The translations under genes and the position numbers were made by a program. DNA of 64,000 bases from Methanococcoides seepicolus (GTDB taxonomy: Archaea > Halobacteriota > Methanosarcinia > Methanosarcinales > Methanosarcinaceae): positions 1 to 64,000 of the forward strand of contig NZ_JAGSOI010000002.1 of NCBI RefSeq assembly GCF_023684405.1, in the 5' to 3' direction. Every line of letters begins with the position of its first letter. The first letter of the stretch is position 1. This document shows positions 43,769-56,291 of this stretch, piece by piece. The notes under the pieces were generated by a model that was not told the origin of the DNA, searched no databases, and saw only the letters and a program-made list of their open reading frames with translations.

Positions 43769-44254
43769 CTATCTTATGTCACTCAACGATGCTCTTTTAA
43801 AAAAGGGTTCATCGAACATAAGATCAATAACCACATCAATGCAAGCCCTTACTTTATCAGAAAGAACAAACGAGATATCATCCACCTGACCGATCTCAAT
43901 TCCAAATAGAACAATAGAATCAGGCATTTTCTGAACGTGCTCCGCTATGGAAAGCACATCCACAATACCGACATCATGGATGGTGAACATACCATCACGA
44001 ACGTATTCTTTTAGATCGTTCAGTTCAAACCTGTGTACGGAACCGATATCCCCATTGCTTTTGATCGCATCCACTATGATAACGTGATCCGATCCTTCCA
44101 AAAAGTTCAGCATATCAAGACCACAAGCACCCATATCGATCAGTTCAATATCATTCGGCAGGTCAGAATACATATTTTTTAATTTATCAATAACATGGAC
44201 ACCAATCCCATCATCCCCCATGAGAGGATTGCCACAGCCGAATATGCGGATCAT
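43769..44254 (-). CDS. [NiFe]-hydrogenase maturation endopeptidase (HyaD/VhtD type)
   Basis: 161 residues from ATG at 44254 (MIRIFGCGNPLMGDDGIG), five bases after the stop of the cytochrome b gene. The start motif GCGNPLMGDDGIG has the first Ni-sensing Asp/Glu position, and DMGACGLDMLNFLEG and ITIHDVGIVDV carry the others. It removes the C-terminal tail of the large subunit after nickel insertion; the encoded large subunit here does carry such a tail. The gene ends in TAG with TAA three codons later, so amber read-through would add only two or three residues. Confidence 0.87.
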   Translation of the reverse strand: MIRIFGCGNPLMGDDGIGVHVIDKLKNMYSDLPNDIELIDMGACGLDMLNFLEGSDHVIIVDAIKSNGDIGSVHRFELNDLKEYVRDGMFTIHDVGIVDVLSIAEHVQKMPDSIVLFGIEIGQVDDISFVLSDKVRACIDVVIDLMFDEPFFKRASLSDIR

Positions 44255-44258
44255 AGGA

Positions 44259-45047
44259 TCATTCCAAAGAATCTCTTTCTGCATCAATGAGCTCAACATA
44301 GTCCGGATCAGAAAGATCCTCTTTACCGGTCAGGAATACTGCCTTATAATATTTCCATACCTTTGGATCAAATTCCACAATGCCCACATGAACTATCAAT
44401 TCCACTATGAAGAAATATGACATGAGCAAATGTATAACTCGAATAAATGCCAGAGCACTCATATTCAAAGAAGGGGCGATCATTTCACTGGCCGACAGTA
44501 ACCATTCACTTACCGGCAATCCGAAAATAGCCCATTGGAGATCATAAAGAACGATCCCTGAAAAGGCAATGAACATGACCGCACCACCTTCAAAGAAAAG
44601 CATAAACTGGGTTACCGGATGTAATTTATCAATATAGCCCCGACGTTTGACATTATATATCGTAAATGCCGGATACCCACCTTTCCCCAAATAATTGAGG
44701 AATATCTGCTTCATTCTCCTGATATCCGTTGGCCCGAATAGATACCTATGCGATATGTGGGATATTTTATGGAGAAACATATTGTGAGTCCCGGTTGCAC
44801 ACATGGGACAACGAGGGCATTCGGTCATCAGGACATTATATGGAATAATGATCCAGTTCACAAACAAAAATAAAACCGCTGCAAACAGATGAATAACTAG
44901 GGCAATGTGATAGGTCATGAAATCCCATCCCATATAGATCTTAAATCCCGTTATCAGCAGGATGAACAAGCAGACAAGATGAACAAAGTGTGCCAGTCGC
45001 TCTAAAAATGAATATCTTTTCACAACCATTTCATTTTCTTGTACCAT
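44259..45047 (-). CDS. Hydrogenase cytochrome b subunit (VhoC/VhtC-like)
   Basis: 263 residues from ATG at 45047, which overlaps the large-subunit stop region and is preceded by GAGGAG. Four to five membrane segments with paired histidines (RLAHFVHLV, MTYHIALVIHLF, FIRVIHLLMSYFFIVELIVH) that can hold two b-haems. It accepts electrons from the small subunit and reduces methanophenazine in Methanosarcina-type enzymes. Insert CPRCPMCATGTHNM around 95 carries extra cysteines. Third gene of the hydrogenase operon. Confidence 0.87.
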   Translation of the reverse strand: MVQENEMVVKRYSFLERLAHFVHLVCLFILLITGFKIYMGWDFMTYHIALVIHLFAAVLFLFVNWIIIPYNVLMTECPRCPMCATGTHNMFLHKISHISHRYLFGPTDIRRMKQIFLNYLGKGGYPAFTIYNVKRRGYIDKLHPVTQFMLFFEGGAVMFIAFSGIVLYDLQWAIFGLPVSEWLLSASEMIAPSLNMSALAFIRVIHLLMSYFFIVELIVHVGIVEFDPKVWKYYKAVFLTGKEDLSDPDYVELIDAERDSLE

Positions 45048-45060
45048 CCCGCTCAACTCC

Positions 45061-46854
45061 TCAGACAATATTAAATGTGCGAGAAGCATTACCAAGTTTC
45101 TTCGTCAGATCGATAGTATGCACAGCACATGCGATACATGGATCGTATGACCTTGCAGTATGCAATATACCAGTAGGATTCGCATTATCTATCCCAAGCA
45201 AATTCTCGACTGCCGATACCTTTGTACCAAGAAGGGCCTGCTCGATGGGACCAGGAACTCCTAGGTCATCCCTTGGAGATGCATTCCATGTGGTTGGCAC
45301 AACCATCTGATAATTTATCACCTTTGAATCCCTCCCAGTCCTGACCCAGTGCCCCAGAGCACCACGCGGAGCCTCCCATAGACCGATACCTTGGGAATTC
45401 TCAGCCATAGAAAGATCAGTTGGGACACAGAATTTCCCATTTGGGTCAAGGTCCGAACTCACCCATTTGAGCAATTCATCAGAGAGAAGTAACATCTCCT
45501 GTGCCCTTGCCATCATCCTTGTAAACGTATTGGCAGCAGACTGACCATTCTTGGAAAACATATTTATCAAGCCCATTGTCAATGGCTCTTCCATTGCGAC
45601 CATACGAGCAAGAGGACCAACCTCACACGGAATACCATCATAACGCGGTGCCTTTATCCAACTATATTTACTTTCGTCATTCCCATTATAATCGATCTCA
45701 TCAGCATTCCGAACAGGATCGGTCACCCCTTCCAAGGGATGAAGATTGTGCTTACCAACATAGAACGAATGACCTATCTGTTCTGTCACATTTCTGTGGT
45801 CAAACTTTTTGTGTTCAAAGGAACCAGTAATAAAAGCAGCTTTCTGGAAACCGGACCTGCCAAATTCCAGTGGATCATAGCCATCGCCATGCTCCACGTC
45901 ATAGTAAACACCGTAAGATAAGAACCCTATCTTTGAAGGATCACTGTATCCGCCCGACCTATCAAACTTAAAACTGACAGGAAGCCCTAAATATCTTTCA
46001 CCAATAAGCTCAGAACCAAATGCTGCAAGCAGATCAATATCACCCCAACCCGCAACATGTGAAAAATCATTTGAGATCAAAGACTTTTCTACAAGCTCCT
46101 GCAGATGTTCGATCAAAAAATCTACTGCACGTTGAGGAGATGATGCCCTGAATGTATTATCCAGCCAGGTCCTATGATCCACTCCGAGAGTGGAACCATC
46201 GATAAAATCCATGACGTGATGATAATATGAAGTCAATTTGCCAATATCTGCAACCGTTGGTCTATAGGTGACACCACCAACTACGGATGACATCTGGTGA
46301 GGCATTTTGCCGGCAATGAGAGCTATGGCTTCCTGAAGCCTTTTCTTTTCCTTTATAGCATTTAGATACGCATTGCCCGGAGGAATAGATACGCCATTGA
46401 GCCGATAGCTTATCGGAGCAAATCTATAAAGAAGTTCTTTCCACAATGCAGCCCCGGTATCACCAATCGTGGCCAATACATCCCTATAAGCAGGGTTCAC
46501 GATATCCGGCAACCATAATACATAAATGTGGGTTGCATGGCTAGCCATCATATTTAGGGACTGTATGATATTCCTTGCAACAAGTGCATCTTTTGGAACT
46601 TGATCAGCAATCCCAAAAAGATCATCAAGAGCATTGGCAGATGCCATTGCATGAGAAGTGGGACAGACACCACACACCCTTTGAGTAATGCGTGCGGCAT
46701 CCCGTGGATCCCGGTTCAACAATATACGTTCAAATCCCCTGAAAAGCATACCTGCACTTTGTATATCTGAGATCACACCTTGCTCATTTACTTCTGCAGA
46801 TAAACGAAAATGCCCTTCGATACGGGTTAATGGATCTACAACGACCCGGGTCAT
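45061..46854 (-). CDS. Membrane-bound [NiFe]-hydrogenase large subunit (VhoA/VhtA-like)
   Basis: 597 residues, normal length. First nickel pair in RVCGVCPTSH (Cys61, Cys64), second in DPCIACAVH (Cys573, Cys576). The 18 residues after His579 are the tail removed by the maturation protease. Group 1 features include RIEGHFRLSAEV and the conserved SVVGGVTYRPTV and RDDLGVPGPIEQALLGT. It oxidises or evolves hydrogen at the Ni-Fe centre, here facing outside as the partner carries a Tat signal. Its ATG overlaps the small-subunit stop by four bases. Confidence 0.95.
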   Translation of the reverse strand: MTRVVVDPLTRIEGHFRLSAEVNEQGVISDIQSAGMLFRGFERILLNRDPRDAARITQRVCGVCPTSHAMASANALDDLFGIADQVPKDALVARNIIQSLNMMASHATHIYVLWLPDIVNPAYRDVLATIGDTGAALWKELLYRFAPISYRLNGVSIPPGNAYLNAIKEKKRLQEAIALIAGKMPHQMSSVVGGVTYRPTVADIGKLTSYYHHVMDFIDGSTLGVDHRTWLDNTFRASSPQRAVDFLIEHLQELVEKSLISNDFSHVAGWGDIDLLAAFGSELIGERYLGLPVSFKFDRSGGYSDPSKIGFLSYGVYYDVEHGDGYDPLEFGRSGFQKAAFITGSFEHKKFDHRNVTEQIGHSFYVGKHNLHPLEGVTDPVRNADEIDYNGNDESKYSWIKAPRYDGIPCEVGPLARMVAMEEPLTMGLINMFSKNGQSAANTFTRMMARAQEMLLLSDELLKWVSSDLDPNGKFCVPTDLSMAENSQGIGLWEAPRGALGHWVRTGRDSKVINYQMVVPTTWNASPRDDLGVPGPIEQALLGTKVSAVENLLGIDNANPTGILHTARSYDPCIACAVHTIDLTKKLGNASRTFNIV

Positions 46855-47996
46855 ACCTCACCCTCCTTTTCATCATCCTTATCAACAACGATCCTACGAA
46901 CAGCGTGGGCTGCACCAGCAAGTATTGCGGTGCCAACCCCCACTTTAGCAAGAGAATCCGCATTCATCCCAAATAAAACAGGCTTATCTTCGGCCTCTTC
47001 ATAAAAAGGAGAAGAACTGTCAGGGAAACCCGGTTCGCAGCAGGAGATGCACGGCGACCCTGCCTGAGTGCACATATTTACGGAACCATTCCATTTGCGA
47101 AGAGCACAATCCGAATGAGTGTAAGGTCCCTTGCAACCAAGTTTCCATAGACAACCATCCCCTGAAAGGTCGGTATCCAGTTTCCCGACATCATAAAATC
47201 CCCTGCGTGGGCAATTATCATGCAGCGTGTGGTCGGCAGGGAAGAAAACAAGAGGACGATCATATTTATCCAGAACAGCATCAAGGTCATCAGGGACCCT
47301 TATCTTTCCAAGTATCACAGCAGCAAGTGTCAGAAGCATCCAATCCGGATGGGCAGGACAGCCCGGCACATTTATAACCGGTTTGCTAATGCCAAGCTCA
47401 GTAAGCATTCCTTTTGAAGGGTCTTCTTTTAGGAAGGAAACCCCCCTAAAGTCCATGAGATCCGTGATGGCACTATCAGCTGCATTTACTCCACCGTATG
47501 TAGCACACATCCCCACAGCCAGGATCATATCGGCATTCTCTGCTGCTTTTTTAAATATATCTTTAAAAGGACGTTCACCATACATGCAATATTTACCAGA
47601 ACCATTGGGGCCATTGGCAATTGAACCTTCGACCACGAGTATATATCCGCCTTCCTCGATGGCATCATTCAGCAGTATTTCAGAATTCAACTCAGAGGTA
47701 CCTGCAAGTCTGCCATCAACAAAAATGCCTTGTTGTGCCAGAAGTGTTTCGTGATAGACCAGATCCACATTCAGTTTTTGGATCGCCTGTACAATGTCGG
47801 GGTTTTCTGCATTCAGCAATGATTCCGAACAACCTGTACATTCAGCACCATGTATCCATACTATTTTCGTCTTTGAGATCTCAATCGCATTTGAAATATC
47901 AGAATGATATATACCAAGGAATGCAGAAGCCCCAATTGCACCTGCTACCTTGAGAAATGTTCGTCGATCCATTCCAAGAAAATCGGTTTTCCCCAC
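46851..47996 (-). CDS. Membrane-bound [NiFe]-hydrogenase small subunit with Tat signal
   Basis: 381 residues from GTG 47996; ATG at 47972 would remove eight residues but keep the signal. The twin-arginine motif DRRTFLKVAG (10-19) precedes a hydrophobic stretch and SNA cleavage site. Proximal cluster ligands start with ECTGCSESLL (C53, C56); later cysteines (CPAHPDW, DNCPRRGFYD, GCKGPYTHSDC, CTQAGSPCISCCEPGFPD) hold the medial and distal clusters. A C-terminal hydrophobic anchor (LAKVGVGTAILAGAAHAV) sits in the membrane. It would drag the folded heterodimer through the Tat pore encoded nearby. Confidence 0.94.
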   Translation of the reverse strand: MGKTDFLGMDRRTFLKVAGAIGASAFLGIYHSDISNAIEISKTKIVWIHGAECTGCSESLLNAENPDIVQAIQKLNVDLVYHETLLAQQGIFVDGRLAGTSELNSEILLNDAIEEGGYILVVEGSIANGPNGSGKYCMYGERPFKDIFKKAAENADMILAVGMCATYGGVNAADSAITDLMDFRGVSFLKEDPSKGMLTELGISKPVINVPGCPAHPDWMLLTLAAVILGKIRVPDDLDAVLDKYDRPLVFFPADHTLHDNCPRRGFYDVGKLDTDLSGDGCLWKLGCKGPYTHSDCALRKWNGSVNMCTQAGSPCISCCEPGFPDSSSPFYEEAEDKPVLFGMNADSLAKVGVGTAILAGAAHAVRRIVVDKDDEKEGEV

Positions 47997-48026
47997 ATTT
48001 TCGATCAGATCATACCCCCAGAATTA

Positions 48027-48044
48027 AGATCAAAATTTTGATCT
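48027..48044. promoter_or_regulatory. Perfect 18-bp palindrome between hydrogenase and hyp operons
   Basis: agatcaaaattttgatct reads the same on both strands. It lies 31 bases before the small-subunit start and ~90 bases before hypC, in the 138-base divergent control region, next to a TATA-like ATAATATG on the minus strand. This is the position expected for a repressor site acting on the hydrogenase promoter. No regulator gene is nearby, and the site does not look like a known nickel (NikR) operator as I recall it. Confidence 0.5.
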
Positions 48045-48134
48045 AATCATATTATTGCTACAAACACAGTTAAAGTTTTCATTTGCACAGATTGTTGCTT
48101 ACACTTAAATATCAGCAATCCTTCAATTTATTTG

Positions 48135-48365
48135 ATGTGTATTGCAATCCCCGGGAAGATAACAAAACTGCTAGACGAATATACAGCAATGGTAGATTTT
48201 GGAGGAGTGGAACGAAAAGTGAACCTTGACCTTATTACCGGCTCTGAAGAGATCATACCCGGACTGAACATACTGGTTCATGTGGGATATGCCATCTCCA
48301 TAATTTCCGAAGATGAAAGAAAAGAAATATCAGAAATTCTTGAACAATTGGAGAATGATGAATAA
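48135..48365 (+). CDS. hypC: Hydrogenase maturation chaperone HypC
   Basis: 76 residues from ATG 48135; MCIAIPGKI is the invariant start with the functional Cys2, so the upstream TTG is not the start. Binds HypD and the large subunit to deliver the Fe(CN)2CO group. Overlaps the next gene by eight bases. First gene of hypCDABE, with TATA-like acttaaatat (48103-48112) close upstream. Confidence 0.92.
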   Translation: MCIAIPGKITKLLDEYTAMVDFGGVERKVNLDLITGSEEIIPGLNILVHVGYAISIISEDERKEISEILEQLENDE

Positions 48366-49425
48366 TATGTCCATGGAGGCAAAGCTGCTAAAAAGTATTT
48401 GTGATCGTTCAAGGCCCATCCGCATCATGCATATCTGTGGTACCCATGAAAGAACGATCTCACGCTATGGATTACGGAACGTATTGCCAAAAGAAATAGA
48501 AATATTGAGCGGTCCGGGTTGCCCCGTATGTGTTACCCCAGTTGAGGATATCGACATTGCGATCGCACTTGCAAGATCTGGCATAATAATAACATCTTAT
48601 GGAGATATGCTTCGCGTTCCCGGAAGCTCAATGAATCTTATGGAAGCACGATCAGAAGGATGCGATATAAGAACGGTCTACAGTATCGATGATGCAATTA
48701 CAATAGCAAAAGAACATCCCAGTCGTGATGTTGTGTTCTTTGCCATAGGATTTGAAACTACTGCACCCACCAATGCGGCCACGCTTTTACGCAAGCCCCC
48801 TAAGAACTTCAGTTTACTCACATCACACCGACTGATCCCACCAGCTCTTTTACATCTGCTCGATGAAACGAACATAGATGCATTCATAGCCCCTGGGCAT
48901 GTTTGTGCCATTACAGGCATACAACCATACCAGCAATTTGCAGACCTGGGGTTTCCAATCGTTTCTGCCGGATTTGAAGCAAATGATGTGCTGCTATCCA
49001 TCCTCATGTTGCTGGAACAGAGTCGTTTAGGCAGACCCATTGTTGAAAATGCATATCCGAGTGTTGTAAGAAGAAAAGGAAATTTGAAGGCACAGGAAAT
49101 GATGGCAAGTGTCTTTGATGTTGCAGATGCACAATGGCGAGGACTTGGCACTATTAAGAACTCAGGACTCAAGCTAAAGAATGAATTTGCAGATCATGAT
49201 GCGGTATTGGTTCATGAAAATGTGATCAGGTCCTACAAAAAAGAGACATCGTATGAACGTATCAATGTTGACAAATGCAGATGTGCTGATATTTTGAAAG
49301 GCAAAGAAGAACCCGATCATTGCCCACTCTTTGGAACAGATTGTACACCTGTGACACCAATAGGTTCCTGTATGGTCAGTCAGGAAGGTATGTGCTACAA
49401 CTGGTATCAGTACAGGAATGTGTGA
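48358..49425 (+). CDS. hypD: Hydrogenase maturation protein HypD
   Basis: 355 residues from ATG 48358, six bases after GGAGA in the end of hypC; the frame is open 15 codons earlier. Motifs: MHICGTHERTISRYGLR, GPGCPVCVTP, TSHRLIPPAL, PGHVCAITG and the C-terminal 4Fe-4S cysteines (CRCADILKG, HCPLFGTDCTP, GSCMVSQEGMCYNWY). Scaffold where iron, CO and cyanide are assembled. Two bases separate it from hypA. Confidence 0.93.
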   Translation: MNNMSMEAKLLKSICDRSRPIRIMHICGTHERTISRYGLRNVLPKEIEILSGPGCPVCVTPVEDIDIAIALARSGIIITSYGDMLRVPGSSMNLMEARSEGCDIRTVYSIDDAITIAKEHPSRDVVFFAIGFETTAPTNAATLLRKPPKNFSLLTSHRLIPPALLHLLDETNIDAFIAPGHVCAITGIQPYQQFADLGFPIVSAGFEANDVLLSILMLLEQSRLGRPIVENAYPSVVRRKGNLKAQEMMASVFDVADAQWRGLGTIKNSGLKLKNEFADHDAVLVHENVIRSYKKETSYERINVDKCRCADILKGKEEPDHCPLFGTDCTPVTPIGSCMVSQEGMCYNWYQYRNV

Positions 49426-49427
49426 AA

Positions 49428-49859
49428 ATGCACGAATATTCACTTGCCTGCGAGGTTGTTAAAAATGTCATGTCCATAGCAGAGGCAAACCAGGCAAAGG
49501 AAATCAGAACTATAACCCTTGGAGTAGGAAAGCTGACACATATAAATCCGGAGCAGTTATTGTTCTGTCTTAAAACACTGATGACAGATACCATTGCAAA
49601 GGATGCAGATATCGTATTGCAAGCAATATTCCCGAATATGGAATGTGAATGCGGATATTATGAAAAAGGCGAGGTCATATATTCTGCAACTAAAAGAGAA
49701 GCTAAAGAAAAGAGGAATATTTTGGATTTTCTCAAAGAGCCGGATGAATTCCATGGGATAAGAGCATTCTTTGAGACGCCTTGCCCAAAATGTGAGAAGA
49801 TGTTACATGCATCCGGCGGCAGGGAACTTATTATCCAGAGTATCGATATTGAACAATGA
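49428..49859 (+). CDS. hypA: Nickel-insertion chaperone HypA
   Basis: 143 residues from ATG 49428 (MHEYSLACEVVKNV). The nickel-binding N-terminus is M-H-E-Y. The zinc finger has CECG and CPKC pairs separated by a ~45-residue insert (YYEKGEVIYSATKREAKEK...), as in archaeal HypA; the upstream part of the same frame overlaps hypD and is not coding. Works with HypB to deliver nickel to the large subunit. Confidence 0.9.
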   Translation: MHEYSLACEVVKNVMSIAEANQAKEIRTITLGVGKLTHINPEQLLFCLKTLMTDTIAKDADIVLQAIFPNMECECGYYEKGEVIYSATKREAKEKRNILDFLKEPDEFHGIRAFFETPCPKCEKMLHASGGRELIIQSIDIEQ

Positions 49860-49879
49860 TATTTTAAGAGAATGATACG

Positions 49880-50530
49880 ATGTTAATGCATGTAATAAAT
49901 GTAGGTCACGACGTGCTTAAAGCAAACGACATGCTTGCAGAGAAAAATAAGGAACTTCTTGACAAAAATGGTGTGTTCGCTATCAATATAATGGGTGCCA
50001 TAGGGTCAGGCAAGACAACCCTTATCGAAAAAGCAATAGAAATACTTGGAGATCATTATCGTATAGCAGTAATTGCAGGCGATGTAGTAGCGGATATGGA
50101 TGCCGCAAGATTTGCAAAGCTTGGTATTACAACGATTCCTGTGAATACCGGACGTGAATGTCACCTTGATGCAAACCTTATAGAAAATGTCCTAAGCTCA
50201 ATGAACCTTCGTGATATTGACATCCTATTCATGGAAAATGTAGGAAATCTCATCTGTCCGACAGATTACAAACTTGGAGAACATCTACGCATAGTGATAG
50301 TGAGCGTTACAGAAGGAGATGATATCGTACTCAAACATCCAATGATCTTCAGATCCGCAGATGTTGCAGTGATCCACAAAACAGACATTGCAGAAGCAGT
50401 TTATGCAGACTGCGAGAAAATGGAACGTGATGTGAGACAACTGAATCCAAACATCCCGATCCTGTTGACATCGATACGCGATACTGAAAGTATCGAACAG
50501 TGGTGTTCGAAAATATCATCTTATATTTAA
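49880..50530 (+). CDS. hypB: Nickel-insertion GTPase HypB
   Basis: 216 residues. P-loop GAIGSGKTT (39-47), GDVVADMDAARF (switch I), GRECHLDANLIENVL (metal site, Cys and His), FMENVGNLICP (switch II) and HKTDIAE (base recognition). No N-terminal polyhistidine stretch, so it does not store nickel itself. GTP hydrolysis drives nickel transfer from HypA. Confidence 0.93.
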   Translation: MLMHVINVGHDVLKANDMLAEKNKELLDKNGVFAINIMGAIGSGKTTLIEKAIEILGDHYRIAVIAGDVVADMDAARFAKLGITTIPVNTGRECHLDANLIENVLSSMNLRDIDILFMENVGNLICPTDYKLGEHLRIVIVSVTEGDDIVLKHPMIFRSADVAVIHKTDIAEAVYADCEKMERDVRQLNPNIPILLTSIRDTESIEQWCSKISSYI

Positions 50531-50553
50531 AACTTCATACCGAAGCAGGAATT

Positions 50554-51606
50554 ATGACAAAAAAAAACATCATCACAATGGAACACGGTGCAGGCGGTCA
50601 AGTCATGCAGGGATTGATCAGCAAGTCGATACTAGGCAACATTTCAAACCGATCGGCAGGAACAGTCGGACTTGACGATCTTGATGATGGTGCCACCATT
50701 GCCTTACCTGCAGACTTTAATTCCAGTTATGAAATTGTCATTACCACTGACAGCCATGTTGTAAAACCATTGTTCTTCCCAGGAGGAGATATTGGGAAAT
50801 TGGCTGTTTGCGGAACTGTGAACGACCTTACAGTAATGGGGGCCAGACCAGTTGCTTTGACATGTGCCATCGTCGTAAGTGAAGGATTTGAAAGGGAGAT
50901 ACTTGAAGAGATAATCCAATCCATGGACCTTACAGCAAAGGAGGCGAGGGTTGCCATTGTAACCGGGGATACCAAAACAATACCAAGAAATGAACTGGAT
51001 TCCATAATAATAAACACCAGCGGGATAGGTTTTGCACCCCGAATTATAAGGGACAATGGCCTTAGCCCGGAAGATATGATAATACTTACGGGCACCATAG
51101 GGGACCACGGAATTTCATTATTGTCACATCGGGAAGGGTTCAACTTCAATACTAAACTGGAATCTGATGTTTCACCACTGAACGATCTTCTGGAAAAGTC
51201 GCTACAAATAACAACACATGATGGAAGAAGTGCCATAACAGCGATGAAAGATCCTACAAGAGGAGGATTGTCTGCCAGTATCAATGAAATGACACAGAAA
51301 AGCAATGTTGGCGTGATCCTTGAGGAAGAGGATATTCCGATCAAAAGCGCAGTAAGGTCTGCATGCGAGATGCTGGGGCTGGACCCATATGAGATCGCAA
51401 ACGAAGGTAAAGCCATTATGGGCGTTAGACCGGAGTATGCTGATGAAGTACTGGAGCTACTGCATAGCCATAAATATGGAAAGGATGCAGCTATTATAGG
51501 AAAGGTTGTTGCAGAACATCAGGGGAAGGTGTTACTAAGAACACCCATTGGAAGTCTGCGTCAATTGAACATGCCTGTTGGAGACCCCATTCCAAGAGTA
51601 TGTTGA
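50554..51606 (+). CDS. hypE: Hydrogenase maturation protein HypE
   Basis: 350 residues from ATG 50554; the earlier open codons overlap hypB. Begins ITMEHGAGGQVMQ and ends PIPRVC, the C-terminal cysteine that HypF carbamoylates and HypE dehydrates to thiocyanate. ATP-binding glycines lie in AVCGTVNDLTVMGARP. The gene depends on HypF function, relevant to the amber codon in hypF. Last gene of hypCDABE; convergent with tatA. Confidence 0.93.
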   Translation: MTKKNIITMEHGAGGQVMQGLISKSILGNISNRSAGTVGLDDLDDGATIALPADFNSSYEIVITTDSHVVKPLFFPGGDIGKLAVCGTVNDLTVMGARPVALTCAIVVSEGFEREILEEIIQSMDLTAKEARVAIVTGDTKTIPRNELDSIIINTSGIGFAPRIIRDNGLSPEDMIILTGTIGDHGISLLSHREGFNFNTKLESDVSPLNDLLEKSLQITTHDGRSAITAMKDPTRGGLSASINEMTQKSNVGVILEEEDIPIKSAVRSACEMLGLDPYEIANEGKAIMGVRPEYADEVLELLHSHKYGKDAAIIGKVVAEHQGKVLLRTPIGSLRQLNMPVGDPIPRVC

Positions 51607-51628
51607 CATCCCTCACTCCCTTAACTGC

Positions 51629-51931
51629 TCACTTCTGCAACAGTACATTTATCTCAGAAAGAAGTTGCTCATCGGTCTTGTCCTTAGTATCGATACCAAG
51701 GTTTGCTGCCACCTTATTCACATCGGGCTTATTTTCAACCCCGGAATACGAATCTTCAAGAGAACGTTCAAAGTCCTTTAATGAAAGTTCCGATTCTTTC
51801 TGTGCTTTTTTAAACTCACCCATGGAAGTTCCCATTGAGCGTGCCAGTTCCGGCAACTTACTTGCACCAAAAAGTAACAATAATCCTGCGAATATAAGTA
51901 ATAGTTCGCCAGACCCCAATCCTCCGATCAT
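51629..51931 (-). CDS. tatA: Twin-arginine translocase subunit TatA
   Basis: 100 residues from ATG 51931, which follows GGAGGGTG; a GTG three codons earlier is possible. One membrane helix (8-24, ELLLIFAGLLLLFG), the FG hinge and amphipathic helix ASKLPELARSMGTSMGEFKKA, then an acidic tail. Subunits assemble around TatC to make the pore for folded proteins such as the hydrogenase small subunit. Sits beside a second TatA-like gene. Confidence 0.88.
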   Translation of the reverse strand: MIGGLGSGELLLIFAGLLLLFGASKLPELARSMGTSMGEFKKAQKESELSLKDFERSLEDSYSGVENKPDVNKVAANLGIDTKDKTDEQLLSEINVLLQK

Positions 51932-52006
51932 TAATTTCACCCTCCATTACATAATTCTGTTACATATATTTGTGAACATATTGCTTATAAAATGTCGGTT
52001 TACCCA

Positions 52007-52297
52007 TCACTTCGCCTTCACAACATCCGCAAGAAGATCTAATAGTTCATCACTGGACTTCCCACGCACATCTATACCAGAAGATATTGCCATTTCCATG
52101 ATCTTCCTGTCAACATCCTTTCTGTCAACATCATGATAAAGATCAAGATCGTTCAAGCCCAATTCTGTGGCACGCTGTGCTTTCTTAAAATCACCTACTG
52201 CTTTACCAAGTGAGTGTGCAAATTCCGGGATCTTGTCAGGACCAAAAATAAGTAATGTTGCGATCAGCACAACAAATACTTCAAGAGAACCTATCAT
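52007..52297 (-). CDS. Second TatA/TatB-like subunit
   Basis: 96 residues: short outside N-terminus, membrane helix (5-19, LEVFVVLIATLLIFG), hinge PDKIPEFAHSLGKAVGDFKKA, acidic tail. Similar to the neighbour in plan and tail (both end in a small LGID/SGID repeat-like helix), but only distantly identical. The pair may divide TatA and TatB roles. Lies between tatA and tatC on the same strand. Confidence 0.82.
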   Translation of the reverse strand: MIGSLEVFVVLIATLLIFGPDKIPEFAHSLGKAVGDFKKAQRATELGLNDLDLYHDVDRKDVDRKIMEMAISSGIDVRGKSSDELLDLLADVVKAK

Positions 52298-52352
52298 CTT
52301 TATTAAAATAATGATGTTCGTTCTTTAAATAAATATTGTTTTGCCTGTAAAC

Positions 52353-53105
52353 TTATCTGGATACCAGCAATCCAATCTCAAATAAAATAACAATCAGAAG
52401 TGCACAAACAAACTGTGCTATAAAAGTTAGATCAGGAGACAGTGAAAATGCAAATGCCAGGATCGAACTATACACAAGGATGCGCATTTTGCGCAGTGAT
52501 CTGCACTCCACAATATTCATTTTTGTTGCAAAGAACATCAATACAGGTATCTGGAAGATCAGACCTGACCCCAGGATCAGAGTTATGACCACTGAAATGG
52601 CTTTTGCTACCGAGATCTGATCATCTGCGATCATCCCGGAATACAACACCACATTATCAAATATCATTGGCACCATGAACAAAAAAGCAAGGCCCGCACC
52701 TAAAAGAAAGAAAATGAATGATACAGGAACGATGCTTATGCAGAATCTCCGCTCATTGGGATAAAGGCCTCTTGCTGCAAACCTGAACCCTTCATAGAAT
52801 ACTAAAGGGAAAACAAATATGACTGCCATCAAGAACGAAAGTCGGATCCTGAGGAATATCCATTCCAACGGAGAGTATACGGTCATCCCGATAACATCAG
52901 GAAAGAACTTATGCCACATCTGTTGCAAGATCAATTCAGAAAACGGATAAAAAACACATATGAAGAGGAACATGACAAGGATGATCGCAATGGAACGATC
53001 ACGTAATTCTGCCAGATGGGAGATCAACGGCTCTTCGAAGTCGCCATCTACACCACCAATAAAAATATCACGAGATCCGCTTTCAAGACATCTTTGCTTT
53101 TCCAT
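52353..53105 (-). CDS. tatC: Twin-arginine translocase subunit TatC
   Basis: 250 residues from the ATG at 53105 (MEKQRCLESGSRD); the frame extends 13 codons further but those are not typical. Six membrane helices with the signal-recognition motif EEPLISHLAELRDRS before the first helix and SPLEWIFLRIRLSF after the first loop. Receptor for the RR signal, as carried by the hydrogenase small subunit encoded 5 kb away. Divergent from a second TatC-like gene over 66 bases. Confidence 0.88.
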   Translation of the reverse strand: MEKQRCLESGSRDIFIGGVDGDFEEPLISHLAELRDRSIAIILVMFLFICVFYPFSELILQQMWHKFFPDVIGMTVYSPLEWIFLRIRLSFLMAVIFVFPLVFYEGFRFAARGLYPNERRFCISIVPVSFIFFLLGAGLAFLFMVPMIFDNVVLYSGMIADDQISVAKAISVVITLILGSGLIFQIPVLMFFATKMNIVECRSLRKMRILVYSSILAFAFSLSPDLTFIAQFVCALLIVILFEIGLLVSR

Positions 53106-53171
53106 ATAACCATAATAGGTTTGGAATATATGCAATAAAAACATAGTACATGATAAGAGGAGCAGAATAAG

Positions 53172-53897
53172 TTGACATCTTATACAGAAGATATGAACAT
53201 AATAGCTGCTGAAATGCGAAAGAAGCTATACCTATTCATAATCGTCCTTTTTACTACTTTTTCAGTATCTTTTCAGTTTACAAACCCATTGATAAGAAAT
53301 ATCAAGGAAGGACTGCTGCCAGAAGGTGCAAAACTTGTCTATGTCTCACCCCTTGAAGTGATCTTGCTCAAAATAAAGATAGCATTGGTGATAGGACTAT
53401 TTGCCCTACTTCCGCTTGTGCTTTTTTTTGTGATAAGCCCCCTTATAAAGAACAGAAATATACAGATACAGATAAGCAAACGATGGTTGACGATGTCAGC
53501 ATTTTTTGCGATAGCTTTGTTCGTTACAGGTGTGGCCTATGCATACTACATCATGTTACCACTGTTCATTAACTATCTATACCTTAACGCAAGCACATCA
53601 GGGGTCATTGCTACTTACTCGATATTCAGTTTCATTTCTTTTGCAGTACAAGCATCCTTCATATTTGGAATAGTGTTCGAAACACCGCTTTTCCTTACCC
53701 TGCTAACAAGGTCCGGCATCGTACAATATAAAGTACTCCTTGAGTACCGCAAACATGTCTATGTATTCTGCCTTATTGCAGGTGCAATAATAACACCACC
53801 GGATATTATTAGCCAGATAATGGTAGGAATTCCACTTATCATCTTCTTTGAACTGAGCCTTTTAATAGTCAGATATACCGGTGGTAACAGGAACTAA
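53172..53897 (+). CDS. Second TatC-like protein, diverged
   Basis: 241 residues from TTG, which has GAGGAG nine bases upstream; an ATG at 53193 is the alternative. Six hydrophobic segments and the TatC core motifs SPLEVILLKIKIAL and YRKHVYVFCLIAGAIITPPDIISQ, but the N-terminal HLxELRxR receptor motif is degenerate (IIAAEMRKKLY). Such partner TatC copies occur in archaea and may form a heteromeric receptor with the normal copy. Convergent with hypF. Confidence 0.78.
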   Translation: MTSYTEDMNIIAAEMRKKLYLFIIVLFTTFSVSFQFTNPLIRNIKEGLLPEGAKLVYVSPLEVILLKIKIALVIGLFALLPLVLFFVISPLIKNRNIQIQISKRWLTMSAFFAIALFVTGVAYAYYIMLPLFINYLYLNASTSGVIATYSIFSFISFAVQASFIFGIVFETPLFLTLLTRSGIVQYKVLLEYRKHVYVFCLIAGAIITPPDIISQIMVGIPLIIFFELSLLIVRYTGGNRN

Positions 53898-53919
53898 GGT
53901 CAGATCGAGCCGAATATCA

Positions 53920-56196
53920 TTATTCCCACCTGCTCAGCCCTGCTACGATGGCTTGTCCAAGTGATATACCCCCATCTCCGCATGGCAACCTTCTGTGAGA
54001 AATAAACCTTATTTCAGAAGCATTCACCTCATCAGCTATCCTTTTAGCAATGTGTTCATTATACGCAACTCCACCTGTCAATCCAATGATATCAACATCA
54101 CATTTTTTTGCCGACCTTAGTGCAAGCTCTGCCACCCCCAAAGCAAAAGCGTCTTCAAAGGCGTATGCAAGCTCTGAAACAGAATGCTCCCCGATCCGAT
54201 CATACAGCTCATGCAAAAGCATCCCGGAATCAAATACCCCATTATTTAAGACAAGCGGCAACTCAACATCAGAGTTAATACCCCCCCTTGCAACTGATTC
54301 CAGTTTCATGGCAGGTTCACCTTGATAACTTCGATAACTACAGATTCCCAAAAGTGCAGATGCTGCATCCAAAACCCTTCCAGCACTGGTAGACATGACC
54401 GTATTTAGATCCTTATCCAATTGGTCCAGCACAACATTTGCTTCCTTTGGACCATTCTTCAATCCCAGATCCAATTTCAATAGTTCATCCCGACCCACAA
54501 TATCCTTCAGCATCCCCAGAACCATTCGTCCGGGATAATATGAAGCAATATCCCCTCCTGCCATGGGTTGTGGTTTTAAGTGAGCCTGTCTATTGTAATC
54601 CGTATAGGTCGTCTCTAAGATTTCCCCGCCCCAAACACTGCCATCCCCACCATATCCGACCCCATCAAGAGCTATACCAATTATCCTAGAATCCTTTTCC
54701 AATTGAGCATCCGCCATAAGGGATACAACATGTGCATGATGATGCTGAACAGGCACAACATTATCAACACCATGCTCCAATGCAAATTTAGTTGTACTGA
54801 ACTGGGGATGAAGGTCACAGCCCCAAGATTCAGGTGTGATCGAAGTCAGTTCTCCAAATCTATTGAATAACTTCTGATAATACGTTGCCACCTCAAAATG
54901 AGCCATGTTGCCTATGTGCTGGGATATGTAAGCTTTATTACCTGTTGCAAAAGTCATTGTGGTGTTCAGTTCCGCTCCTACCCCCACAGAGGGGTCTATC
55001 ATAAAAGGCAGATCTAAAGATCGTGGCACATATCCACGTGAGCGACGAACGAATAGCGGACCCCTTGAAGTGGACCTTCTCACAGAATCGTCAACCCGGT
55101 TCTCTATTTTCAGATCATGCAGGAGATAATTGTCCGCTATTTTTGCCATAGCCTTTATGGCAATATCATTGTCCAGAACCATTGGAAGATCGGGTAGGTT
55201 TGCCGAGGTCATTACATACACAGAAGCCAAAGTGTTATGGAAAAGAAGATGATGGATACCAGAATAAGGCAACATCACACCAACATTGCACAATTGCGGA
55301 GAGATCGACGACAGAGACAGTATATTTTCCCTTTTATCTAAAACAACTATAGGATTGCTTACATCACACAACAGTTCTTCTTCTTCGGAATTAACAAAGG
55401 CAAATGACCTCACATGCCCAATGTCCTTTGCCATGACTGCAAATGGTTGCTGTGGTCTTTGGAGTTTTCTCCTTAGCAATTCCACCACATTGTCCTTTGA
55501 AGCATCACATATAATGTGGAACCCTCCATATCCTTTAACGGCAATGATCTTACCTGAATCGATCGCTTTTGCACAATCCACGATCGCACTATTACCAAAA
55601 GAGCTGGAGTTGCCATTTTTATCTGCAAAGGTGATGTTGGGACCACAGTTCGAACAGCAAATTGTTTGCCCATGGAAACGACGATCTGAACAGGAGATGT
55701 ATTCCTGAGCACAATAAGCGCATGGAATAAAAGCACCCATGGATGTATTTTGCCGATCATAGGGAAGTGCATGTGAGAATGTATAGCGAGGCCCGCATTC
55801 CGTGCAGGATATGAAAGGGTACTGATAGCGCCTGTCATAAGGATCGAACAATTCATTGAGACACTTAGGGCATATACCAACATCCTATATCATTATCGAA
55901 TCAGGAGTTGTTTCGGATCTACTGTCAAGGATAGAAAAATCCCTGTAATTGGAATTGATCGATCCATTCACCTCAACTGTATCGATCTTGCTCCGAGGTG
56001 GATTTTTAAAATTGAGGTCATATAGAAATCGATCGATATTTGACATATTACCTTCGACTACGATCTCCACACGCCCTCCGGTGTTTCTGACATAACCATG
56101 CAGACCATATTTTTTAGCAATGCGATAGATGAACGGGCGAAATCCCACACCCTGTACGACACCCCTTACCAGTATCCTCTTGCAACCCCCAGCCAT
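53920..56196 (-). CDS. hypF: Hydrogenase maturation carbamoyltransferase HypF with in-frame TAG
   Basis: 758 codons read as one frame with a single TAG at 55885-55887 (codon 104). N-terminal acylphosphatase domain (VRGVVQGVGFRPFIYRIAKKYGLHGYVRN, 9-37), then TAG, then zinc fingers (CPKCLNEL, CTECGPRYTF, CAYCAQEY, CSNCGPN), YrdC-like domain (IIAVKGYGGFHIICDA) and Kae1-like domain (HHHAHVVSLMAD, GVGYGGDGSVWGGE, GLTGGVAYNEHI). HypF carbamoylates the HypE C-terminal cysteine using carbamoyl phosphate. The amber falls at a point usually occupied by Pro in the IPDxxxC junction, and full length is normal, so read-through as pyrrolysine is the best guess; a sequencing or nonsense error is the other. 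Confidence 0.82.
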
Positions 56197-56291
56197 TGTT
56201 TTTTATTCGTCCCGATGTTTTAAGATGTTTTTAATAGATACCTATATTAGAAGGATAATGCCTATTTAAGTTCATTAGTGGAGAATTTGTC

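Follow-up and report, generated by a model that had tools for sequence, protein, structure and literature searches.

The window, that is, the whole 64,000-nucleotide stretch of Methanococcoides seepicolus DNA analysed here, carries a hydrogenase/hyp/tat module of which hypF forms one end. The features are as follows:

43771..56229 (.), hydrogenase/hyp/tat island of 12.5 kb, delimited by blastn against stretches of four congeneric genomes
43769..44299 (-), hydrogenase maturation protease (PF01750), its TAG end at the island edge
44259..45095 (-), cytochrome b-like membrane subunit adjoining the large subunit (PF01292 at 26.1 bits, cut-off 30.1)
45061..46854 (-), [NiFe]-hydrogenase large subunit, the sole full PF00374 match found in the genome
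46851..47996 (-), [NiFe]-hydrogenase small subunit (PF14720, PF01058; Tat signal match PF10518 under cut-off)
48313..51606 (+), hypD, a hypA-like gene, hypB and hypE (TIGR00075, TIGR00073 and TIGR02124 above cut-off; HypA models under cut-off)
52007..53897 (.), tatA-like gene (-), tatC (-) and tatC (+) (PF00902 twice; TIGR01411 at 48.4 bits, cut-off 53.9)
53920..56196 (-), hypF (TIGR00143), 758 codons and a terminal TAA, codon 104 being TAG
55777..55875 (-), first HypF zinc finger (PF07503), downstream of the TAG
55885..55887 (-), in-frame TAG at residue 104 of hypF, pyrrolysine in the explanation favoured here
55930..56178 (-), acylphosphatase domain of hypF (PF00708, residues 7-89), upstream of the TAG

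The hypF frame runs from an ATG at 56196 to a TAA at 53920, and the TAG is its sole internal in-frame stop, which confirms on the sequence what an earlier, sequence-only reading had claimed for this codon and for the length of 758. The same reading held that the domains continue in frame past the TAG, and indeed, when the codon is read through, TIGR00143 matches residues 8-751 at 816.6 bits (cut-off 466.1), and the Pfam domains follow one another in the order acylphosphatase, two zf-HYPF, YrdC, HypF_C and HypF_C_2. The HypF motifs were located and are kept, 654 codons are open after the TAG, and the cysteines C109, C112, C131, C134, C159, C162, C181 and C184 are invariant in 33 sequences. With this full-length match, domain order and set of motifs, the predicted product would belong to the HypF carbamoyltransferase family. 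HypF carries out carbamoyl phosphate-dependent synthesis of the cyanide ligand of [NiFe]-hydrogenase. Among the HypF structures 4g9i and 3vth, residues 8-754 of the window HypF align with 4g9i (E 1.2e-190), the difference being that the proline of the linker is replaced by TAG in the window gene. In an AlphaFold2 model built on the 33-HypF alignment (mean pLDDT 92.4), in which a lysine stands in for pyrrolysine, residue 104 falls in a coil that joins the acylphosphatase domain to the first zinc finger, a linker in which the bulky pyrrolysine side chain should be tolerated. A second hypF was not found by a search of the own genome; the one other match to the gene is a frame on contig C13 that, at 109 codons, has the size of an acylphosphatase.

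The island is sharp-edged, with a GC content below that of its neighbours, and the TAG that ends the protease gene (43769-43771) straddles its left edge, the host match ending at 43770. Four genomes of the same genus (G016, G017, G022 and G023) lack it at the corresponding place, where 76 bases (807 in G017) separate the flanks. Both flanks align with these four genomes at 86-95%, and the adjacent aroA shares 96-98% identity with theirs. Contamination, for which the genome is listed at 4.36%, was considered and rejected, the contig being the host's according to the aroA identity and the flank alignment. The module is complete in a stretch of G068 and is partly covered by the stretches read from G057 and G052. 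Moreover, in the HypF tree the window copy groups with two other genera, g10 and g11 (support 0.98), apart from its own genus, and its codon usage resembles that of the host weakly: it scores 0.017 bits per codon, where 30 relatives reach 0.046-0.115 on the same table. Hence hypF has a low coding score before as well as after the TAG. The simplest reading is that the island was gained by transfer, loss in the four sister genomes being the alternative, and it may be a recent arrival.

The sequence-only reading had made its proposal depend on the presence of pyl genes in this genome, and pylT, pylS, pylB, pylC and pylD are all there, with PylS, PylB, PylC and PylD above their NCBIfam cut-offs. 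Three of the four MtmB genes of the genome hold an internal TAG. Stop codon usage was determined with a simple codon-usage gene caller on 41 pieces, the window among them, that add up to 565 kb of a 2.80-Mb genome: the 312 called genes end with TGA (172), TAA (134) or TAG (6). Since TAG makes up 18.6% of the stop triplets in six frames, the probability of six or fewer TAG-ended genes is ~3e-20, in line with the earlier statement that TAG is rare as a stop. A smaller sample of 298 kb gave 3 TAG-ended genes out of 141. The same reading had counted two genes of the window as ending in TAG; this number was not matched exactly, as the caller gives one, the hydrogenase maturation protease, the first part of hypF being under its threshold, so that hypF comes in addition to the six TAG-ended genes.

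Among these six, a single Pfam domain extends across the TAG in mtbB and in two histidine kinases, and a multiheme cytochrome is matched across it by an NCBIfam model at 43.2 bits, far under the cut-off of 250, with no spanning Pfam domain. In the hydrogenase protease the next stop comes 2 codons on, and in a DUF255 protein 0 codons on. Thus, four of the six TAG-ended genes appear to continue in frame past the TAG, the fourth weakly. For comparison, 31 TGA or TAA codons flanked by coding sequence before and after were likewise read through, and none splits a domain, bar one nominal match to the repeat PF14583 at L140, which runs across tandem beta-propeller genes. A looser scan found a second TAG inside the MEDS domain of one kinase, another TAG in a phage-type integrase and, on L155, a TAG-bearing frame without Pfam family. 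In the integrase (L132:1339-2079, G000:C17, own genome), the TAG is within the N-terminal SAM-like domain and the catalytic domain is incomplete in the frame; the multiheme cytochrome-like frame (L153:4557-5966, G000:C98, own genome) has its TAG at residue 315 and continues in frame. With an extra release factor in mind, aRF1 was searched for: one match is above cut-off, and three more, all partial, lie in two other frames. TAG in this genome is close to being entirely a sense codon.

Histidine kinases with a TAG in the ATP-binding domain lie at L156:13867-15648 (G000:C110), at L129:312-2258 (G000:C5) and in L177 (G000:C146); in two of them the TAG comes after the same FT-x-x-x-G stretch, and one is a MEDS-domain type with two TAGs. 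The kinase TAGs are common to copies in other species of the genus, and dN/dS after the TAG is low. A histidine kinase of ~450 residues has its TAG at the same place in all six copies compared, each having been chosen because it was listed with a TAG, and dN/dS after the TAG is 0.09-0.26 in the five comparisons with the own copy. For the two-TAG kinase, the second TAG is common to the copies of G023 and G016, in which the first is a CAG; dN/dS past the second TAG is 0.21 and 0.31 for these copies. Counting against our reading, dN/dS before the first TAG is 0.48-1.00, over 79-85 codons with few changes; the TAA-holding kinase rows given below and the lack of a Pfam domain across the TAG of the cytochrome count against it as well. 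When this kinase was searched against the genus (191 matches in 11 genomes), at least 25 rows among the matches listed hold a TAG and at least three a TAA (one of them also a TAG), and none a TGA, many of the listed rows being orthologous and so non-independent. Kinases of the genus are thus under purifying selection past shared TAGs. Together with the pyl genes and the TAG-specific read-through elsewhere in the genome, this supports the earlier interpretation of the hypF TAG as a codon that is read through. TAGs common to sensor kinases across the genus are also a stronger sign than hypF of pyrrolysine as a routine residue in these archaea.

The sequence-only reading had further placed the TAG at a conserved proline and had called for a comparison of hypF in relatives at this codon. 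We aligned the codons of 30 family loci among the matches listed, the window's own included, plus G022:C61. Among these matches, the TAG codon faces a proline (CCN) in 29 of 30 relatives and a threonine in one, with a TAG at codon 104 in none of the 30. Position 104 is likewise a proline in 74 of 80 named HypFs, the others having alanine (2), tyrosine, glycine, histidine or threonine (1 each), and none of these 80 loci holds a stop inside hypF. The 80 were kept out of 592 loci given by an alignment-based query, a search of genome contigs with the HypF protein alone having given no match; none is titled Methanococcoides, and this search may omit records of the own genome or of genomes near it. 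Across the class, 77 hypF matches (E <= 1e-100) were found in 76 of 237 genomes, and two hold a stop, in both cases a TAG and in both cases in this genus. A conserved functional pyrrolysine site, as in the methylamine methyltransferases, would be expected to keep its TAG in homologues, and the homologous hypF sequences do not appear to do so; the count of 0 out of 30 speaks against a conserved switch. A TAG that sits in a linker, at a near-invariant proline, and that is absent from relatives suggests neutral capture. Since any change from proline to TAG needs at least two base changes, an intermediate residue is likely.

The second TAG-bearing hypF belongs to G022 (L039:586-2838, G022:C61) and adjoins hydrogenase subunit genes. 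Its TAG is codon 588, a position held by glutamine or aspartate in others of the genus, and dN/dS past it is 0.14-0.20 in six comparisons, against 0.10-0.22 in six control pairs. G022 also carries a TAG-free hypF copy.

We propose that the window hypF is intact and that its codon 104 is very probably decoded as pyrrolysine, giving a full-length HypF, a claim drawn from sequence comparison. The alternative that deserves most attention, raised already by the sequence-only reading, is a recent nonsense mutation, in which TAG would act as a stop, HypF would end after 103 residues and the island, newly acquired, would be non-functional. Such a loss would agree with the absence of a TAG at this place from all 30 relatives among the matches listed and with the replacement of a near-invariant proline, a residue so strongly preferred at position 104 that it counts against read-through. 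It would also agree with the absence of the island from the four sister genomes, as an island that is possibly recent has perhaps left decay no time to show, which again counts against read-through. Moreover, the nearest hypF homologues are 59-63% identical, too diverged for the TAG to be dated, and in the dN/dS comparisons with G068, G057, G052 and G060 the synonymous sites are saturated, so that the constraint seen reflects past divergence only and constraint since the TAG is not separable. Against this stand the pyl system and the reading through of TAG in other genes, the 654 open codons with their kept motifs past the TAG, and the need for at least two changes from CCN to TAG. At columns invariant in the other 29 HypFs (30 of 31 sequences used, the truncated HypF of G045 in L021 being excluded), the window gene deviates at 0 of 22 before the TAG and at 8 of 174 after it, like other long branches, since the next most deviating HypFs have 5, 8 and 11 changes after the TAG. 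A decayed hypF is, furthermore, of another appearance: the remnant beside tatC at G052:C25:11763-12397 (in L173) mixes TGA, TAA and TAG, unlike the window hypF. We therefore consider the nonsense mutation unlikely. An intact hypF of G052 lies ~5 kb from this remnant.

A split gene, in which an acylphosphatase-like protein ends at the TAG and a second protein restarts downstream, would suit the two parts, which match domain borders, and E. coli HypF fragments without the N-terminal domain are stable enough for crystals (the alignment with 3tsp and related chains starts at residue 102). The first in-frame starts after the TAG are, however, a TTG at residue 116 and then an ATG at residue 153, and either would lose D105, C109 and C112, which come after the TAG but before the earliest possible start and are invariant in 33 HypFs; by eye, a ribosome-binding site before the TTG is not obvious, and we regard this arrangement as highly improbable. 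An error of sequencing or assembly in this draft genome of 158 contigs is equally far-fetched, as any proline codon would need at least two wrong bases to become TAG, in a frame that is otherwise unbroken.

Decoding of the TAG by tRNA-Pyl as pyrrolysine would yield the 758-residue HypF, with the pyrrolysine placed in the linker from the acylphosphatase domain to the first zinc finger. TAG being nearly all sense in this host, ribosomes would pass codon 104 without a special mRNA signal, and insertion of pyrrolysine is thought to need none according to passages of PMC8211752. A signal-dependent recoding by a PYLIS-like element was considered and rejected: no unusually stable RNA structure was found after the TAG, the 103 nt from the TAG being less stable than shuffles (z +1.43). 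Most likely, the TAG is of neutral origin under constitutive read-through, and since several genes tolerate this codon, its capture was probably neutral.

The sequence-only reading had also tied hydrogenase maturation to the supply of pyrrolysine. The physical part of this tie would follow from our results, for no other hypF was found, and an active [NiFe]-hydrogenase of the island should therefore need charged tRNA-Pyl; selected regulation is without support here. The data show the TAG itself, the pyl genes, how few genes end in TAG, homology that goes on past TAG and, in other genes of the genus, selection past it; the read-through of hypF itself, the dependence of the hydrogenase and the neutral origin of the codon are what we infer from them. 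A bolder hypothesis could be that hydrogenase maturation is gated by pyrrolysine supply through the methylamine/pyl programme and that, together with the kinase TAGs, pyrrolysine serves as a metabolic signal beyond catalysis. Such a regulatory link is conceivable because a second hypF was not found in the genome, and we hold it to be rather improbable.

The window hypF thus looks like one more example of a known habit of these microbes, with no new mechanism. A 2025 report in Science reportedly describes an archaeal 'Pyl code', in which some archaea read all TAG as pyrrolysine. The present genome resembles it in its pyl genes, in the near absence of TAG as a stop and in its in-frame TAGs in non-methyltransferase genes, and differs in that the carrier here is hypF. 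A literature search found no paper pairing the whole words 'pyrrolysine' and 'HypF'. The methylamine methyltransferases MtmB, MtbB and MttB share with hypF an internal TAG past which the frame stays open in a genome with pyl genes, and such genes occur here too; the difference is that their pyrrolysine is catalytic, as stated in parts of PMC8211752, and that the one in hypF would lie in a linker and is seen in no relative. For MttB, PMC4928046 gives a pyrrolysine residue mass of 237.3 Da. In-frame amber genes beyond the methylamine methyltransferases are described as rare in a section of PMC11467909. Passages of PMC1242214 mention a CobN-like read-through open reading frame in Methanosarcina acetivorans, and passages of PMC3639795 mention transposases and a TetR regulator with in-frame amber codons; these scattered cases are like the window gene in having one in-frame TAG where homologues have ordinary residues, and unlike it in concerning genes other than hypF.

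The window hypF would be a clear example of an enzyme that has no part in methylamine metabolism and should need pyrrolysine in order to be made. Annotation under the standard code would call this hydrogenase system broken. With a single hypF, a single full large subunit and an island absent from sister genomes, the locus bears on how acquired genes adapt where TAG is a sense codon. As a minor observation, the own genome also holds a TAG-free MtmB homologue (L038, G000:C104:4660-6009) beside a Cdc6-like gene, comparable to the nonpyrrolysine MtmB homologue in Methanococcoides methylutens named in the title of PMC13044021.
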